A stretch of DNA of 32,816 nt from Candidatus Epulonipiscium sp. (GCA_012520595.1 JAAYNZ010000017.1:1-32816); one strand, 5' to 3'. Shown: positions 8,200 to 20,109, numbered from the stretch's first letter. Translations and numbers: made by a program. The notes: generated by a model from the sequence alone, not told the origin.

Positions 8200-10461
8200 T
8201 TATTGACCTACTTTATATTCTACAGGAGTAATCTCCACTTGATTGCTATCAAAAGACTTGAAAGAGCTAATCCATTGAGGCTGCAAAGGAGCATCCTTCA
8301 ATAAGCGCTCTGGATTAATACGTTCATAGTGCCATTCATTTTCTTCTACTCTTTCCACTCCTAACATCTCATGCCACTGCTGATCCGTTAAAGGTTTATC
8401 TCCTACAAATTCATAATAACTATAGACTGAACCTCTAGCTAAATAGACTTTACCTTCGTAATGAATGGCTACTAAAATTTCATTTGGTAACCCCGTTCCG
8501 ATTTCTAAAAATGCTCCTGCATCTGCGATTCCAGCAACATCAGAAATGACTGCAGAAGAAATGGATTGCTTGTATTGATCTGATAATGTATCATCAATAA
8601 ATTCCATAGTTCCACCTATGTATTTTAAAGCCTTGTTTTCTTCTTCTGAAATCGGAATATTTTCAAGTTCTTTAACAGAACACTTCCTAAATAATTCATA
8701 TATTTCTTCTAAGCGTTCTAAAGCAAGAGAACTTCTTTCTAGTAATAAACCCCTTTTTTCGAGATTAGTCTTTGAATATTGCACTAACCATAATAATCGA
8801 TCATATACTTCAACGGCAGGTTCTACATAATTAGGGTACGGCTCTTGCCATTCTTCCCCTCCTCCCATTTCTGCTACTGGCTGTTTTGCATAAAGTACAG
8901 TGTCATGTTTTAATTCGGCATAACTACCAAGCCCTGTATGGATATTTTTATCTTCCCATGCTTGGCTTTTCATGAAAAAGGGAAGGCCTTCTACTTCTTC
9001 AATAGAAGTCCAAATGGACCTAAGAATCCACAACCAGCCATTGTATAGATTTTGTTGCCAATCCTTTTGTTCTAGAGATTCTACTTTCTTCCTCATTGTT
9101 TCTAGCTTACTTACATACTTTTCAGGATCTAAATCCTCCAAATAACCTTCCTTTACAAGGGTTTCTGCCCTCTCACTTCCAAAGGCCCCTACTACATCTA
9201 ATCCTGTAGGAACAGGTCTAAGTATGGGAAACATCAATTCTTGCATAATATTGGCATCCAAAGTATACCTCTGCCCCATAAACCGAAATTGTTTTTCTGT
9301 AGGAGTATCGATTCCGGTTACTAGTTTATGTTGAATTTGAGGTCCTGGTAATTTTTCAATTTCTTTTATCAGTTTACTACGGTATTTTTCATTTCTAATA
9401 TCTTCAGGTATCACATCTTCCCCATAGACTTTAATGATTACTTCTTTTAACTCAAAAAGGGTAATGTCATCTGACTGACCTACAAAAAAGTTAGTTGGAG
9501 CATAGATTTTATCCCAAAGAGCAATATCATCCACCCCATCTTTTTCAAGAAAAGCAATGTAGGTAAGCAACATGCTTTTTGCAATGGAATCATAGTCAAA
9601 ATTTCCTTCTTGATCGTAAAAAGGAAAACCAATCAATCCATACCACATCATGGTTCTAAAATAAGATTCTAATATTTCATCCCCTGTATAATGACCTCGA
9701 ACTACAAATTGCTCATAATTAATGTCAAACCCCAAGAGAGGTGACTTGATATAACCTTGTGCATTTTCAATTTGTTTTATTTCTTTTTCTGCAATGGAAA
9801 CAAGGTCTTCTGGTATATCTCCATAAGAACCGTTAATTAACTTATTACCTACTGAAAAATATACCATAATATCTGCTAAATCCTTTTTTATTGCTTGATT
9901 TCCCACTGTTGAATATAACCCAATTGTTTTTTGCAACATATTTTCTGTTAATTGTTGCAATGCTTGGAATAATTGTTCCTTTTCTACTGATTTTAATGTT
10001 TCATCAAAAAATTTATGATATAAATGAAGAGCCACATCCACTGTAACAAAATTAGGAATTTGATTATATTCATTTTCTTCATATAGATCATACATTTTCA
10101 TATAATAATGTGCTTTTTGGGGATTGGGTTCTAATATTACAAACCCATTATTGGTTAATTGATCGATTTGTCCTTGAGAAAATCCATGAAATCGATGAAG
10201 ATTTTCGATGTTTTGTAACTGGGGTGCCACATGATAGTTTGGAACCTTAGGTGTGTAGGTTGTTGGCGAAAAGGGAATTTTTTCATTTGAATATTCCAAT
10301 GCGTCTTTCCATACTAAAACATTTTTATTGGCCGTCATATCAACAACATCTTTCATCCTCTGATCTTGCATTGACCCTGGATTATTCTTATTGCCCATTT
10401 CCTTACATCCCGTCAACAATAGAATCATACACAAAAATATGACTACGTTCCCTTTTTTCAT
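8200..10461 (-). CDS. DUF3160 family lipoprotein
   Basis: 753 residues with an N-terminal lipoprotein signal: basic start, hydrophobic core, then LLTG-C with Cys19 as the acylated residue. It should therefore be anchored on the outer face of the membrane. The remainder matches the DUF3160 family in length and motifs, for example the VTVDVALHLYHKFFDETLK segment (~143-161) and the late EVAVIHYEG-like strand (here EILVAIHYEGKVYLARG). Function is unknown; I see no catalytic motif I can name. The GAGGAG site before its ATG lies within the last codons of the upstream gene, and the two genes are one base apart, so they are one transcription unit. Confidence 0.88.
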   Translation of the reverse strand: MKKGNVVIFLCMILLLTGCKEMGNKNNPGSMQDQRMKDVVDMTANKNVLVWKDALEYSNEKIPFSPTTYTPKVPNYHVAPQLQNIENLHRFHGFSQGQIDQLTNNGFVILEPNPQKAHYYMKMYDLYEENEYNQIPNFVTVDVALHLYHKFFDETLKSVEKEQLFQALQQLTENMLQKTIGLYSTVGNQAIKKDLADIMVYFSVGNKLINGSYGDIPEDLVSIAEKEIKQIENAQGYIKSPLLGFDINYEQFVVRGHYTGDEILESYFRTMMWYGLIGFPFYDQEGNFDYDSIAKSMLLTYIAFLEKDGVDDIALWDKIYAPTNFFVGQSDDITLFELKEVIIKVYGEDVIPEDIRNEKYRSKLIKEIEKLPGPQIQHKLVTGIDTPTEKQFRFMGQRYTLDANIMQELMFPILRPVPTGLDVVGAFGSERAETLVKEGYLEDLDPEKYVSKLETMRKKVESLEQKDWQQNLYNGWLWILRSIWTSIEEVEGLPFFMKSQAWEDKNIHTGLGSYAELKHDTVLYAKQPVAEMGGGEEWQEPYPNYVEPAVEVYDRLLWLVQYSKTNLEKRGLLLERSSLALERLEEIYELFRKCSVKELENIPISEEENKALKYIGGTMEFIDDTLSDQYKQSISSAVISDVAGIADAGAFLEIGTGLPNEILVAIHYEGKVYLARGSVYSYYEFVGDKPLTDQQWHEMLGVERVEENEWHYERINPERLLKDAPLQPQWISSFKSFDSNQVEITPVEYKVGQ

Positions 10462-15168: not shown

Positions 15169-16425
15169 CTATAATAAAAAATAATAGGACTCCAAAAGAT
15201 AAGATTGATCGTATTTTATAGCCATTTTCCACAAATAATTTTTAACTGTTTTTAATTGGGCTTTCCCTTGTTTATATTCTTCAATGATCTTAGAAAATTT
15301 CTTTTTTTCAGCCTCTGTAGAACTATTTTTAAAATACCCCCAAATATGTAATACGGCGTTTAAAGCACTTCCAGTACTTTCTTTTTTCTTTAAAGCCCCT
15401 TCTATTAGACCATAAAAATCAATAGCAGGGTAGCTGTTTTTGTCATTCAACAAATTTCGTATGGCTATATAATCAGAAGCCGAGTTCTCTAAAACTTTAT
15501 ATTTATACCTACCCCATTCTTTTTCCAACTGTTGAATTTTTTTCTCCTTTTGGGTGCAATGAATACACTTTATGGCTGATAAATTTTTATCTTTAACTTC
15601 TAACATAATATCAATATCCTTACAAGATAAACGGGAATAAAAACCTATAAACTCATGAATATCGATAGTATCTGAATGAGCTCCCGGATTTTTCCCAAGA
15701 GCTTGTTGAGCATAATGGATCTTTTGTTGACCATCCCCCTGCCCCCATGTTTCTTTACATTGATCAATCCAATCGTAATCATCCTTTTCTTTATCAACAG
15801 GATTGATTTTGTTATGCAAATTATCATAAACAACAGGTATTTTTAACCTTATTCCAATGTCTAAAACCTCACCAATGGTATAACATTTATCATCATTTTC
15901 TATAACAAGACGTTGTTTTATAGTTTTATCTAATTCACCATAGTTAGCGACAAATCTCTCCATGGCCTCTTTTTTATTATTATAGATACCTCCAATATGC
16001 AGTACAATTTTATGTTCTTTGCTCAATCCTAAACAATCCAACACTTTAGCGTGATAATGAAGATCATCGATGGCCTTTTGAACCACTTCATTACGATTGG
16101 AATTTAAAACAGTATACTGCCCTGGATGCATGGATACTCGCATATGAGCATCTTTAATTTTTTTCCCTATAGATTGAAAAGTAGAATCAAAAATATCCCA
16201 CCAAGGAAGACGGTTTGCAGGACTTGACCCAAATGCAATCAAATCAGAGCTAATTCGAAAAAGGTTTATATGGTTTTCTCTATTATACTCAATGACATGA
16301 TCCAAAGAATTTAAATTGTATTGTATTAAAGCTAACAATCTTTCTTCTTCTGCATTTTTAAGCATACATCTCTTATAATCTGTGTTAGGAACCCCTACTG
16401 TTAAGCATGCATAGCCTATCCCCAA
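15169..16425 (-). CDS. uvsE: UV DNA damage endonuclease UvsE with C-terminal DUF1722-like extension
   Basis: Nicks DNA 5' of UV photoproducts. 418 residues against ~300-320 for a minimal UvsE. The TIM-barrel core occupies ~1-285. Residues that correspond to the metal site of the Thermus enzyme are H100 (SMHPGQY), H143 (LHIGG), E176 (VIEND), D201 and H204 (YDNLH), K235 and H237 (QKIHY), H250 and E276. The last ~65 residues (ALNAVLHIWGYFK, then IIEEYKQGKAQL and a final YYF) resemble the YbgA/DUF1722 domain. Translation starts at TTG, 6 nt after GGAGG; no ATG is available. It is the last gene of a five-gene operon, 15 nt after the SDR gene. No clear terminator follows. Confidence 0.9.
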   Translation of the reverse strand: MGIGYACLTVGVPNTDYKRCMLKNAEEERLLALIQYNLNSLDHVIEYNRENHINLFRISSDLIAFGSSPANRLPWWDIFDSTFQSIGKKIKDAHMRVSMHPGQYTVLNSNRNEVVQKAIDDLHYHAKVLDCLGLSKEHKIVLHIGGIYNNKKEAMERFVANYGELDKTIKQRLVIENDDKCYTIGEVLDIGIRLKIPVVYDNLHNKINPVDKEKDDYDWIDQCKETWGQGDGQQKIHYAQQALGKNPGAHSDTIDIHEFIGFYSRLSCKDIDIMLEVKDKNLSAIKCIHCTQKEKKIQQLEKEWGRYKYKVLENSASDYIAIRNLLNDKNSYPAIDFYGLIEGALKKKESTGSALNAVLHIWGYFKNSSTEAEKKKFSKIIEEYKQGKAQLKTVKNYLWKMAIKYDQSYLLESYYFLL

Positions 16426-16440
16426 ATAAATCCTCCTCCA

Positions 16441-17139
16441 TCATTTACTTTTTCTCACGATCCGATGTTTTTGTGGTTTTATAGTAATATCTGTCATTAT
16501 AATTCCTTCTCTTTGTTTTAATACCATCTCTACTGCCTGAGCAATTTCTTCTGGTATAATATAACTTTCTGGAATGTCTCCTTCTTGGAAATCGGCATTT
16601 CGATAGAAATTAGACTTAGTAATATCTGGATGTATCGTAATAACCTTCACTCCATATTTTCGAGTTTCATCAAATAGATTATTGGAAAAGTGGGTCAATC
16701 CTGCTTTCGTAGCTCCATAGACACATCCATGGGTACAGGACTGTTTTGCTGTAACAGACGATATATTTATGATAAATCCTTTATTATTCTTTAAATCTCT
16801 AAGAAGTAACTGAGTAAGAACCAAAGGAACTTCCAAATTTGTTACAACCATTTCATGTATTTTTTTAGGATTTAATTCTTCATGGGGACCAAAATAACCA
16901 ACACCTGCGCTATTTATTAATAGATATACTTTTTCTTTTTTTTTGATTTCTGTAATTTTTTTACACAAATAAGACATGTCCATTATATCACAAACCATAG
17001 GTATAAAATAGTCACTTTCAATACAGACTTTAGAAAAATCCCTTCCTATGCCATACACCCTATACCCTAAGGTAACCAAGGTTTTGCTGATGGCAAAACC
17101 AATTCCTGAAGAAGCTCCGGTAACAATGGCAGTTTTCAT
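16441..17139 (-). CDS. Short-chain dehydrogenase/reductase (SDR)
   Basis: An NAD(P)-dependent oxidoreductase of the classical SDR fold, 232 residues from ATG 17139. That start follows AAGGA by 8 nt and begins directly with the Rossmann strand MKTAIVTGASSGIG (glycine motif 7-14). The frame extends 22 codons upstream into the SPL gene without a better site. NSAG (76-79), the Ser of NISS (127-128) and YGATK (Tyr141, Lys145) complete the active site. The substrate is unknown. It sits 13 nt after the SPL-family gene and 15 nt before uvsE, so a function tied to DNA damage or spore chemistry is plausible but unproven. Confidence 0.85.
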   Translation of the reverse strand: MKTAIVTGASSGIGFAISKTLVTLGYRVYGIGRDFSKVCIESDYFIPMVCDIMDMSYLCKKITEIKKKEKVYLLINSAGVGYFGPHEELNPKKIHEMVVTNLEVPLVLTQLLLRDLKNNKGFIINISSVTAKQSCTHGCVYGATKAGLTHFSNNLFDETRKYGVKVITIHPDITKSNFYRNADFQEGDIPESYIIPEEIAQAVEMVLKQREGIIMTDITIKPQKHRIVRKSK

Positions 17140-17152
17140 CCTCTTCTTCCTT

Positions 17153-18163
17153 TCAAATATATATTTTTTCTTTTGACACATAGTTTGCAGTCCATTGGTA
17201 AACATGATTTATCATTTTCTGTGTTTGTTGCACATCATAGCTAGATATTCCATTTTGAGTCTCAAAGGGATAGCTTAGTAAAAGAGACTCTCCTCTTTGT
17301 TTTCTCATTCTTTTTAAATAATCTTTGGAAACCCGAAAAACACCTATACTAATGTCATAAATCTTTTCTGCTGCTACTTGGCTAAAAGTATATTTAATCA
17401 TCTCCTTGTAATGTTTTTGCCATTCTTCTATAGAAAGGAGAGGATCAAAACACAATCGAACTTTCCATCCTCTATCTAGGGCTCCCTTTATACTTATTAA
17501 TCGATCTTTTAAAAAGGGAGTTTTATTTTCATATTTCTTTATTATTGGATCAGGTGATACGGTCCAGGCTAAAATCATATTTTCTAAAGGTTCTATGTCT
17601 TGAATAGCTTTAAAGTTAGCACTTTTTGTTCTTAATTCAATGGTTAGGTTTTGATGTTTTTGTGCAAAAGCCATCCATTCTCTTCCGTATCCAATGACAT
17701 TTTCAAAAGCCAAAATATCTGTGTCATAGGAAATACAAAGATATATAGGATGTTTTTTTAAAAGTTTTTCTACTTCACCAAAGATTTCTTCAATATTAAC
17801 AAAAACAACTACATTGGCTGAAGTATACATCCCTTGAAGATAACAATATTCACAATCATAAATACAATTCATCATGGTAGAAGTATAGTAAAAATAAGGA
17901 TGACCAAAATCTTCACAAACCTCTGCTCCTTTATAAATCAAATGATCTTTTTTAAGAGCTAGAATCAATTTAGGACTTTTCTTTTGTAACCCATAATGCT
18001 GATGGCTTCTGGAAAATATATCTTTATAGTGGTTGATCTCTATGATTTGTGCATTGCTAAAATGATTTAAAATTTTCTTCGTATTGGGATGGTTCATGGC
18101 TTGTTTTTCAATATATACGTGAGAAAAAGAAGGACTATATAAGCTTTTGTCTAAGTTCTTCAA
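17153..18163 (-). CDS. Spore photoproduct lyase (SPL) family radical SAM protein
   Basis: 336 residues, close to SplB length. The N-terminal SPSFSHVYIEKQAMNHPNTK region matches the SPL family start. The radical SAM cluster is C100-x3-C104-x2-C107 in MNCIYDCEYCYLQGMY, which binds the [4Fe-4S] and SAM that generate the 5'-deoxyadenosyl radical. Downstream is YLCISYDTD (141-149), where I believe classical SPL carries its hydrogen-donor Cys. Aligned from memory, that position is Tyr146 and the nearest Cys is C143. It may therefore be a distinct subfamily rather than true SplB. Translation starts at TTG (18163); an in-frame ATT precedes it and no ATG is near. The start overlaps the upstream gene by 29 nt. 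Confidence 0.85.
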   Translation of the reverse strand: MKNLDKSLYSPSFSHVYIEKQAMNHPNTKKILNHFSNAQIIEINHYKDIFSRSHQHYGLQKKSPKLILALKKDHLIYKGAEVCEDFGHPYFYYTSTMMNCIYDCEYCYLQGMYTSANVVVFVNIEEIFGEVEKLLKKHPIYLCISYDTDILAFENVIGYGREWMAFAQKHQNLTIELRTKSANFKAIQDIEPLENMILAWTVSPDPIIKKYENKTPFLKDRLISIKGALDRGWKVRLCFDPLLSIEEWQKHYKEMIKYTFSQVAAEKIYDISIGVFRVSKDYLKRMRKQRGESLLLSYPFETQNGISSYDVQQTQKMINHVYQWTANYVSKEKIYI

Positions 18164-18959
18164 AATGTTTTTTTCCCTCCTTCTTGGATTGGCACTCTAT
18201 ATCCATATATTGCTTTAAAATTTCTTCTACTGTACCATATTGTAGCCAATAAAACTTCAATAACTGTTTTAATTGATGTTCCATGGTAGATGATAACTTT
18301 AAATTTTTTACTACTTGATTTAACATTTCCTTTTCTTTCTCTGTGAATTCCTTTTTATTGTTTAAAAGTCCACTTTCTACTTTGTGGCTCCATGATAGAA
18401 TGGGTATAGCTTGATCTTCTATGGATTTTGAAATACTATCTTTACTTATATTGTCCGTATATAAATAATCAGAAACTATTTTTATAAAAAAGACTTGATG
18501 GGCCTTTAAAAACAAAGTAGACGATTGATAAATTCCAGATGCTTCCATATCTACTAAATCCCCTTCCAAATCCATATTATTATCCTTTACTAGTGTAGAA
18601 AAAGTTTCAACACTGGCTTCTTTGAAGGGATGAGTAAAAAGAATATCAGGATAAAAGGCTCTTTGGGTTTCATGATCAATGATTTTATTGCAAAGAAATG
18701 TAGTTCCCAAAGGTATATTGGTATTGTTAGTGCCGCATACGCCTATATTGATCAATAAATCAGAGGCGTTCACTGTCCCATTGGAAAGTAAATAAGTAAC
18801 GGCAATGGCTCCTTTCAACTTCCCTACGCCTGTAATAATCAAGGTTATTTCTTCACTTTTAAATACCTGAAACTTTTGATGGGATGTATCTTTTCTTAAA
18901 TTAAATTGCTTAATAAAAGGATACGCTTCATTATACATGGCTGTACATAAAAAGATCAT
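18135..18959 (-). CDS. MTA/SAH nucleosidase-like protein (PNP_UDP_1 fold)
   Basis: 274 residues. The first ~200 are a nucleoside phosphorylase/MTAN-type fold: E11 in NEAYPF near the place of the MTAN catalytic glutamate, ITGVGKLKG (42-50), NIGVCG (71-76), DMEASG (137-142, the ribose-binding Met-Glu) and IVSDY (161-165, with the purine-binding Asp164). An extra ~70-residue helical tail follows. The family cleaves adenine from MTA, SAH and 5'-deoxyadenosine. It sits directly before the radical SAM gene, so 5'-deoxyadenosine removal is an attractive role (inference). Gaps are 2 nt upstream and a 29-nt overlap downstream. The Shine-Dalgarno (AAGGAG) is rather far, 14 nt from the ATG. Confidence 0.8.
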   Translation of the reverse strand: MIFLCTAMYNEAYPFIKQFNLRKDTSHQKFQVFKSEEITLIITGVGKLKGAIAVTYLLSNGTVNASDLLINIGVCGTNNTNIPLGTTFLCNKIIDHETQRAFYPDILFTHPFKEASVETFSTLVKDNNMDLEGDLVDMEASGIYQSSTLFLKAHQVFFIKIVSDYLYTDNISKDSISKSIEDQAIPILSWSHKVESGLLNNKKEFTEKEKEMLNQVVKNLKLSSTMEHQLKQLLKFYWLQYGTVEEILKQYMDIECQSKKEGKKHFEELRQKLI

Positions 18960-18961
18960 AC

Positions 18962-19441
18962 TTAATATCCCATCTCCTTTAATATTCTAGATAAAGTACG
19001 TAGACGTTCTCCAATAAGCTCATCATCATCACTTAATACTTGGCTGAATAATTGGATATCTTCCTTTATTTTTTCATTATCTGTACACACAGCCACTGTC
19101 ATTGCATCTCCTTGCAAACCTACTCGATCGATAATAGGCTTGTCTACATCGTATAAATTCTCATATCGATAAGCTTCTCGAAAATGGAGCTTGGTTCTAC
19201 AAATAAGAATAGCTAGATCAAGAACTCGGTGGAGAGGCAGTTCCTCCGACTGTCTTGACCATTTTTCTCCTGTATATCTCCAAACTTTAGCTGAAATATC
19301 CACCTTCCCCCGATCATTCCATTGAGCTAATCCTAGGGATAATCCCTTAGCATCAGAATCATAAGCATATCGGCCATCTACATTTTCATAATTTTCAGAT
19401 ACAATTACAGGTTTGTGTTTTAACGTTGTTGGTATTTTCAT
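18962..19441 (-). CDS. DUF6530-like protein, first gene of the UV-repair operon
   Basis: 159 residues, no signal or membrane helix. The segment HKPVIVSENYENVDGRYA (8-25), then SDAKGLSLGLAQWN (29-42), looks like the DUF6530 family, recalled from memory. The middle holds WRYTGEKWSRQSEELPLHRVLDL, and the C-terminus is helical (LIGERLRTLSRILKEMGY). No known function. It has an ideal AGGAGG 7 nt before the ATG, is first behind the operator-containing promoter, and ends 2 nt before the nucleosidase gene. It is therefore co-expressed with the SPL, SDR and UvsE genes. A role in sensing or handling damaged DNA is only a guess from location. Confidence 0.7.
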   Translation of the reverse strand: MKIPTTLKHKPVIVSENYENVDGRYAYDSDAKGLSLGLAQWNDRGKVDISAKVWRYTGEKWSRQSEELPLHRVLDLAILICRTKLHFREAYRYENLYDVDKPIIDRVGLQGDAMTVAVCTDNEKIKEDIQLFSQVLSDDDELIGERLRTLSRILKEMGY

Positions 19442-19459
19442 TACAGTACCTCCTACTAC

Positions 19460-19490
19460 TTTACTAGTTTAGTAAATTACTAATTTAGTA
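19460..19490. promoter_or_regulatory. Tandem operator dyads of the UV-repair operon
   Basis: Two similar dyads: TTTACTA-N3-TAGTAAA (19460-19476, perfect 7-bp arms) and TACTA-N3-TAGTA (19478-19490). Their centres are 16 bp apart. The second overlaps the -10; the first covers roughly +4 to +20. This position fits repression. It is not a LexA box. No candidate regulator gene adjoins. Confidence 0.6.
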
Positions 19491-19515
19491 TACCCTTATA
19501 TGAATTCTCTGTCAA
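19487..19515 (-). promoter_or_regulatory. SigA promoter of the UV-repair operon
   Basis: Minus strand TTGACA (19515-19510), 17-nt spacer, TATACT (19492-19487). The -35 is perfect and the -10 has one mismatch. It lies ~46 nt before the AGGAGG and ATG of the first gene. This vegetative type differs from the forespore SigG control known for splB in Bacillus. Confidence 0.8.
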
Positions 19516-19533: not shown

Positions 19534-19576
19534 AAAAAGCCAGTTATGGTGATTTTTTACCATAACTGGCTTTTTT
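19534..19576 (-). terminator. Terminator of the ferritin-like gene
   Basis: AAAAAGCCAGTTATGGT pairs with ACCATAACTGGCTTTTT around an 8-nt loop, followed by a U-tract on the minus transcript. It insulates the repair operon promoter from the upstream gene and is symmetrical enough to be bidirectional. Confidence 0.9.
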
Positions 19577-19581
19577 ATAGA

Positions 19582-20109
19582 TTACTCTTCTTTTTCTTCA
19601 TGACATTCATTTTTTGAATATAATAAGTTATACAAATTGGCATGTCGTAGTTCATCTGTAATAATTTCTGTTAACATATTAATATGCCTTCTATTTTGCA
19701 GGGCAAATAATATTTTTCGATATTTTTCTACTGCTGCTAATTCACCTAGCAATGCCTGTTTTATCCCTTGACAATAAGACGAAGGCCTTTTAAATTCACC
19801 TTGCTGTGAAGGAGAAATCATTTGACCTGTTAGCTCAAAATAAATCTGTCTAAACAAACCAAAATGTTTCATTTCGTCATTTCGAATGCCAGTAATAATC
19901 TTCTTATCTTCTTGGGTAGGAGCTATACTTATTAGATAGCTATAAAACATTTGATCTTCCCTTTCACCTGACACAGCTTCCCGAATCAGCTGAAGTGCCA
20001 TAGGAAAATTTTGCGGATAAGTATATGGATCCACTTGCATTATGGGCCTTTGATAGAATTCGGGATCCATATCCATATAATTATATGAGTAATTATTATA
20101 GTATTGCAT
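19582..20109 (-). CDS. Ferritin-like (rubrerythrin-type) protein, probably spore-associated
   Basis: 175 residues. After a Tyr/Asn-rich leader (QYYNNYSYNYMDMDPEFYQRP) come two helix pairs with the di-iron pattern: Glu49 with E79-x2-H82 in NDEMKHFGLF, and E123 with E153-x2-H156 in TDELRHANLY. The fold should bind two metal ions and could detoxify peroxide or store metal; there is no rubredoxin Cys pair. The Tyr/Asn-rich leader resembles spore-coat proteins, and a SigK-like promoter lies upstream, so expression in the mother cell is inferred. GGAAGGA precedes the ATG. Monocistronic, with a strong terminator. Confidence 0.8.
   Translation of the reverse strand: MQYYNNYSYNYMDMDPEFYQRPIMQVDPYTYPQNFPMALQLIREAVSGEREDQMFYSYLISIAPTQEDKKIITGIRNDEMKHFGLFRQIYFELTGQMISPSQQGEFKRPSSYCQGIKQALLGELAAVEKYRKILFALQNRRHINMLTEIITDELRHANLYNLLYSKNECHEEKEE

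Follow-up and report, generated by a model that had tools for sequence, protein, structure and literature searches.

A nucleosidase and an SPL-type radical SAM protein form a widespread gene module, here within a five-gene set of Candidatus Epulonipiscium sp.

In nucleosidases of the MTAN type, the glutamate of a Met-Glu pair holds the ribose 2′-OH and an aspartate protonates the purine. QueL, the queuine lyase of queuosine salvage, is a radical SAM enzyme. Genome annotation routinely labels relatives of spore photoproduct lyase (SPL) as 'DNA photolyase' or 'spore photoproduct lyase'. In the queuosine salvage of gut Firmicutes, the nucleosidase QueK acts and the lyase QueL follows (PMC11130926). 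The SplB of B. subtilis uses a relay of Cys141, Tyr99 and Tyr97, and Cys74 is the donor in the SPL of C. acetobutylicum (PMC5368176). Radical SAM enzymes are inhibited by 5′-deoxyadenosine, which they release as a by-product (PMC8102628), and RudS acts on tRNA with the help of its DUF1722 domain (PMC11417400).

We analysed a 32,816-nt stretch of Candidatus Epulonipiscium sp. DNA (GCA_012520595.1 JAAYNZ010000017.1:1-32816; hereafter the window), which contains a set of five genes for a DUF6530 protein, an MTAN-like nucleosidase (NUC), an SPL-like radical SAM protein, an SDR and UvsE. The analysis revealed a new type of SPL-like radical enzyme that is widespread and has a nucleosidase, NUC, dedicated to it. 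In the open-access literature searched, we found no account of the link between SPL, nucleosidase and SDR, of DUF6530, or of the operator sequence described below.

Organization of the five-gene set and its promoter

All five genes lie on the minus strand, tightly packed behind one promoter, in the order DUF6530, NUC, SPL-like, SDR, UvsE. The DUF6530 protein is encoded at 18962-19441 (-) (Pfam PF20140, E = 3e-88) and NUC at 18135-18959 (-); the Pfam match of NUC is weak (PNP_UDP_1, 4e-8), but it is confirmed by fold and active site. The SPL-like gene (17153-18163, -) has a TTG start, and its product matched PF20903 (2e-18, Pfam). The SDR (16441-17139, -; adh_short, 2e-37, Pfam) lies in an ORF readable to 17205, and its start is most likely the ATG at 17139 rather than 17205. 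UvsE (15169-16425, -; UvdE, 7e-67, Pfam) also has a TTG start and carries a DUF1722/YbgA domain fused to its C-terminus (residues 308-416; E = 4e-24, Pfam). Counted in gene order from DUF6530, the junctions are a 2 nt gap, a 29 nt overlap between NUC and SPL, a 13 nt gap and a 15 nt gap, and a purine-rich ribosome-binding site precedes each of the four internal genes.

The sigma-A-like promoter TTGACA-17-TATACT (19487-19515, -; 11 of 12 matches) was the best of the region, where promoter-like matches overall were not commoner than in shuffled sequences. A bidirectional intrinsic terminator hairpin (19534-19575; -25 kcal/mol, z = -9.7) separates the operon from a ferritin-like gene, and the five genes are presumably carried on a single transcript. 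The first-pass annotation had described five genes running head to tail behind one promoter, and the ORF positions, junctions and family assignments bear this out. An Rfam scan of the window returned no matches, and none of the five proteins matched the anti-phage defence families of PADLOC. Elsewhere in the window, a 753-aa DUF3160 protein is encoded at 8200-10461 (E = 2e-172).

Downstream of the -10 box and before the ribosome-binding site, five TASTA units follow one another at intervals of exactly 8 bp and make up an operator-like array (19454-19490, -). Similar arrays were present before 16 other clostridial DUF6530 genes examined, with a mean of 3.9 units per 110 nt compared to 1.1 in shuffles, and the unit spacing at DUF6530 genes was exactly 8 bp in 41 of 50 cases. 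No TASTA array was found upstream of other NUC genes. The arrays accompany DUF6530 genes and not other NUC genes, so that the regulated promoter is that of DUF6530, behind which the NUC, SPL-like and SDR trio was placed in this genome. Tandem 8-bp palindromic boxes are typical of ribbon-helix-helix repressors (for example MetJ), and from the 8-bp spacing a protein of this kind is predicted to be the repressor. In 24 genomes, every exact core site of the array lay at DUF6530, save one inside a coding gene of another genome; a regulon governed by this operator was therefore rejected as a candidate, which leaves no UV regulon. The octamer operator of DUF6530 offers a second experimental handle, on a candidate single-target regulator.

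DUF6530 genes usually adjoin a gene for a GIY-YIG-like protein of 115-130 aa (17 loci), and in some cases DUF2087 and a ferritin-like protein. The GIY-YIG-like 117-aa protein and DUF2087 were considered as a link to the module and discarded, as no connection was found. The ferritin-like protein of the window (175 aa, 19582-20109) shows weak similarity to encapsulin cargo, and homologues occur near DUF6530 at two other loci (L137, L146).

Conservation of the NUC-SPL module

We surveyed 391 clostridial genomes with an SPL profile and, in a separate search, with a NUC profile. The SPL profile gave matches of 275-510 bits in 54 genomes, followed by a gap, with SplB-type relatives scoring 136 bits and below. 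NUC lay directly upstream of SPL on the same strand at 51 of these 54 SPL genes, and SPL directly downstream of NUC at 51 of 52 NUC genes. A same-genus genome (G001) had no SPL gene.

A cross-phyla scan with the SPL-like protein, using one genome per bacterial or archaeal species, yielded 47 loci, one of which (L048) holds only a distant SPL relative. With L048 left out and the window counted in, 46 of 47 loci had NUC immediately upstream of SPL; an SDR adjoined SPL in 35 of 47 SPL rows, the window again included. About one locus in four has no SDR next to the pair, so this enzyme may be accessory. Beyond the clostridia, the module occurred in Fusobacteriota, Pseudomonadota, Planctomycetota and Campylobacterota, and it was found in non-sporeformers (Fusobacterium, Butyrivibrio and Gammaproteobacteria). 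In at least five genomes, those of Fusobacterium vincentii and of four clostridia examined (G138, G330, G009 and G103), NUC and SPL are fused in frame into one protein of ~620-670 aa. Pairwise distances were correlated between NUC and SPL (r = 0.91, Mantel p 0.001) and between SDR and SPL (r = 0.93). The SDR is of the classical type, with conserved TGASSGIG and YxxxK motifs, and its Arg55 suggests use of NADP(H). NUC, SPL and SDR form a self-contained, horizontally spread enzyme module.

Two database records deserve comment. The permuted order SDR-NUC-SPL occurs on a contig from the human gut whose entry is that of a bacteriophage (L052, MT835514.1), and the 2.1-Mb 'plasmid' record of Fusobacterium vincentii (L050, NZ_CP084075.1) looks like a mislabelled chromosome. 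A scan of IMG/VR with the SPL profile gave 17 pattern matches, none of which was confirmed.

The other two genes of the set did not share this conservation. Of the loci examined, the window alone had UvsE or DUF6530 next to the trio. DUF6530 occurred in 25 of 196 clostridia and adjoined the trio in the window alone, and the UvdE-DUF1722 fusion was present in about 20 other clostridial genomes, in none of them beside the trio. Across the clostridial genomes, UvsE was encoded in 12 of 54 genomes with the trio versus 60 of 337 others (p = 0.45), and SplB-type genes in 11 of 54 versus 59 of 337 (p = 0.57); these counts take related genomes as independent, which would inflate an association more readily than mask one. 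The 97 proteins flanking the module included no recurrent DNA-repair family. UvsE-DUF1722 and DUF6530 are local additions outside the conserved module. The tight packing had been taken as a sign that all five products work jointly, and this holds for NUC, SPL-like and SDR, whose linkage recurs, but not for UvsE and DUF6530, which are their neighbours only here.

Catalytic features and candidate functions

NUC comprises an MTAN/futalosine-hydrolase-type domain (residues about 1-190) and a C-terminal helical domain (about 200-274). Its AF2 model reached a pLDDT of 93.6, and the best Foldseek matches were all MTANs or futalosine hydrolases (E 3e-12). The catalytic triad E11, E139 and D164 was invariant in 30 homologues and aligned with that of a housekeeping MTAN encoded elsewhere in the same genome, and the Met-Glu pair of MTANs is kept. 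NUC scored 15.7 bits (TIGR01704) and 26.6 bits (PRK05584), below the respective cut-offs of 73.8 and 169. Because NUC keeps the MTAN triad, established MTAN chemistry implies a purine ribonucleoside substrate, and the housekeeping MTAN in the same genome indicates that NUC is a second, dedicated enzyme. At the Lachnospiraceae locus L037 (7457-8053), the ORF upstream of SPL appears to keep only the helical domain of NUC. This hints that the C-terminal domain docks to SPL, and since the nucleosidase domain has seemingly been lost there, the SPL partner may be able to do without hydrolysis.

The AlphaFold model of the SPL-like protein (pLDDT 90.5) matched SplB over its whole length in Foldseek (TM 0.82-0.83, E 5e-21). 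The protein scored 81 bits against the 400-bit cut-off of the NCBIfam equivalog TIGR04070, and the SPL proteins of the trio group in a single clade with support 100, to which none of twelve SplB-type proteins belongs. The cysteines of the CX3CX2C cluster (Cys100/104/107) and the equivalent of Tyr97 (Y106) were invariant in all 57 clade members, and the conserved lysine of the SAM site is kept. At the Cys141 position, 56 of the 57 members have a tyrosine (Y146); at the Tyr99 position, 43 have Tyr, 13 have Phe and one has Ile. The region of the SplB C-terminal hairpin (KWGxxGxxKY) is shorter in the clade. Profile alignment placed C83 on the Cys74-type site of the C. acetobutylicum enzyme; this cysteine was present in 46/46 members from Bacillota and Fusobacteriota, whereas none of the remaining 11 members had it. 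All ten members from Pseudomonadota and Planctomycetota instead had C148, which lies two residues beyond the Cys141 position, and the Campylobacterales member (L031) had neither cysteine. Judged from these alignments, the candidate hydrogen-donor cysteine appears to be kept but relocated, as is already known between SplB proteins. An argument that the missing Cys141 means a lost hydrogen donor, and so proves SAM consumption, was dropped, because C83 sits at the Cys74-type site. By sequence and model, the protein is an SPL-type radical enzyme, and a role as spore photoproduct lyase is at most putative.

Tentatively, and at somewhat short of even chances, we favour salvage of a nucleoside by a composite operon, in which a NUC-SPL-SDR core would handle a purine ribonucleoside that carries a modification or an adduct. 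NUC and the SPL-like protein would form one bifunctional unit: NUC would hydrolyse the N-glycosidic bond of the nucleoside, and the SPL-like lyase would cleave a bond of the same molecule by hydrogen abstraction, with a cysteine then returning the hydrogen. The NADP(H)-dependent SDR would reduce or oxidise the carbonyl product. This core would have been captured behind the operator-controlled promoter of DUF6530, with the UvsE-DUF1722 gene added at its 3′ end. The substrate class, the order of the steps and the role of the SDR are what we infer here, as is the action of NUC and SPL on one molecule or in one cycle. Among the 97 genes flanking the module, no metabolic neighbour was found and the flanks were random. 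We consider unlikely a two-enzyme system in which a dedicated nucleosidase and an SPL-type lyase, whether separate or fused, would work in the dark as a single machine, detaching a damaged or modified purine ribonucleoside and cleaving it by radical chemistry, the SDR finishing the product; if true, this machine would be the counterpart of spore photoproduct repair at the level of metabolites or RNA.

In a second explanation, somewhat unlikely in our estimate, SAM would be a consumed co-substrate of the SPL-like protein, in contrast to SplB, and the 5′-deoxyadenosine so formed would be hydrolysed on the spot by NUC. Product inhibition would thereby be relieved, and the SDR would act on the SPL product or on released 5-deoxyribose. 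5′-Deoxyadenosine is a purine ribonucleoside that inhibits radical SAM enzymes (PMC8102628), and NUC has the active site of an MTAN. Moreover, the SAM-regenerating Cys141-Tyr99-Tyr97 relay (PMC5368176) is not intact, because Cys141 is replaced by Tyr in nearly all members and Tyr99 by Phe or Ile in some. However, an alternative active-site cysteine, the invariant Tyr106 and the near-invariant Tyr146 remain, so that recycling of SAM is possible, and the normal MTAN of the genome would serve its other radical SAM enzymes. A biosynthetic role, in which the SPL-like protein and the SDR make a small molecule such as a signalling or antimicrobial nucleoside from a nucleoside and NUC releases the base, seems very doubtful. 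The patchy distribution over five or more phyla, the pairing of a radical SAM enzyme with an SDR, and the MFS transporters or two-component genes adjoining some copies are consistent with it, but the flanks contain no recurrent transporter, carrier or tailoring gene.

A UV/spore-DNA repair cassette, as the first-pass annotation had proposed, would have the SPL-like protein reverse a dipyrimidine photoproduct, UvsE nick other photoproducts and the remaining genes assist. UvsE does share the operon with the SPL-like gene here, the SPL-like protein has the full SplB fold and a retained active-site cysteine, and the source genome has no other SPL gene. The comparative results point the other way. 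Rarity of the full set in other genomes had been named beforehand as grounds to refute the cassette, and among the loci examined the five genes came together only in the window; UvsE and DUF6530 are not linked to the trio elsewhere, and neither UvsE nor SplB is co-distributed with it. Some genomes with the module have a separate SplB-type gene as well, and the trio's presence in non-sporeformers, its flanks free of a recurrent repair family and the shortened hairpin region also speak against the cassette. The active site of NUC is that of a purine-ribonucleoside hydrolase, which is unfit for a pyrimidine dimer in DNA. The five-gene operon is probably not a UV-repair cassette, and we regard joint repair of UV damage by its products as very improbable; UvsE-DUF1722 might act on UV-damaged tRNA. 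Our analysis would place nucleoside salvage slightly above removal of 5′-deoxyadenosine, and UV repair well below both. With its SPL clade tied one-to-one, and even fused, to a purine-ribonucleoside hydrolase, the DNA-repair annotation of these proteins is doubtful. The clade points to an undescribed radical enzyme reaction, which is testable with three small soluble proteins.

Comparison with known systems

The tRNA desulfidase RudS (TudS-DUF1722; PMC11417400) resembles the operon in its DUF1722 domain, which is also found on the operon's UvsE. The DUF1722 of the operon is, however, fused to UvdE instead of TudS and lies outside the conserved module.

NUC shares the fold and the Glu/Glu/Asp triad of MTAN (Pfs) and futalosine hydrolase (MqnB). 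It differs from MTAN in lacking the SGD-x-F segment, in its additional C-terminal helical domain and in scoring far below the NCBIfam cut-offs, and its gene is either coupled in translation to that of a radical SAM enzyme or fused with it.

QueK and QueL combine a nucleosidase and a radical SAM lyase in sequence, as we propose for NUC and the SPL-like protein. QueK belongs to a nucleosidase family unrelated to that of NUC, and the structure of QueL was absent among the best 50 Foldseek matches of the SPL-like model. The module also differs in having no queuosine genes beside it and in its added SDR.

SplB (PDB 4FHC; TIGR04070) is matched in full-length fold, the CX3CX2C motif, a Tyr97-type tyrosine, the SAM-site lysine and an active-site cysteine in each main sub-clade. 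The SPL proteins of the module differ from it in their low identity (~15-20%), their separate clade, a tyrosine at Cys141, a shorter hairpin region and an obligate nucleosidase partner.
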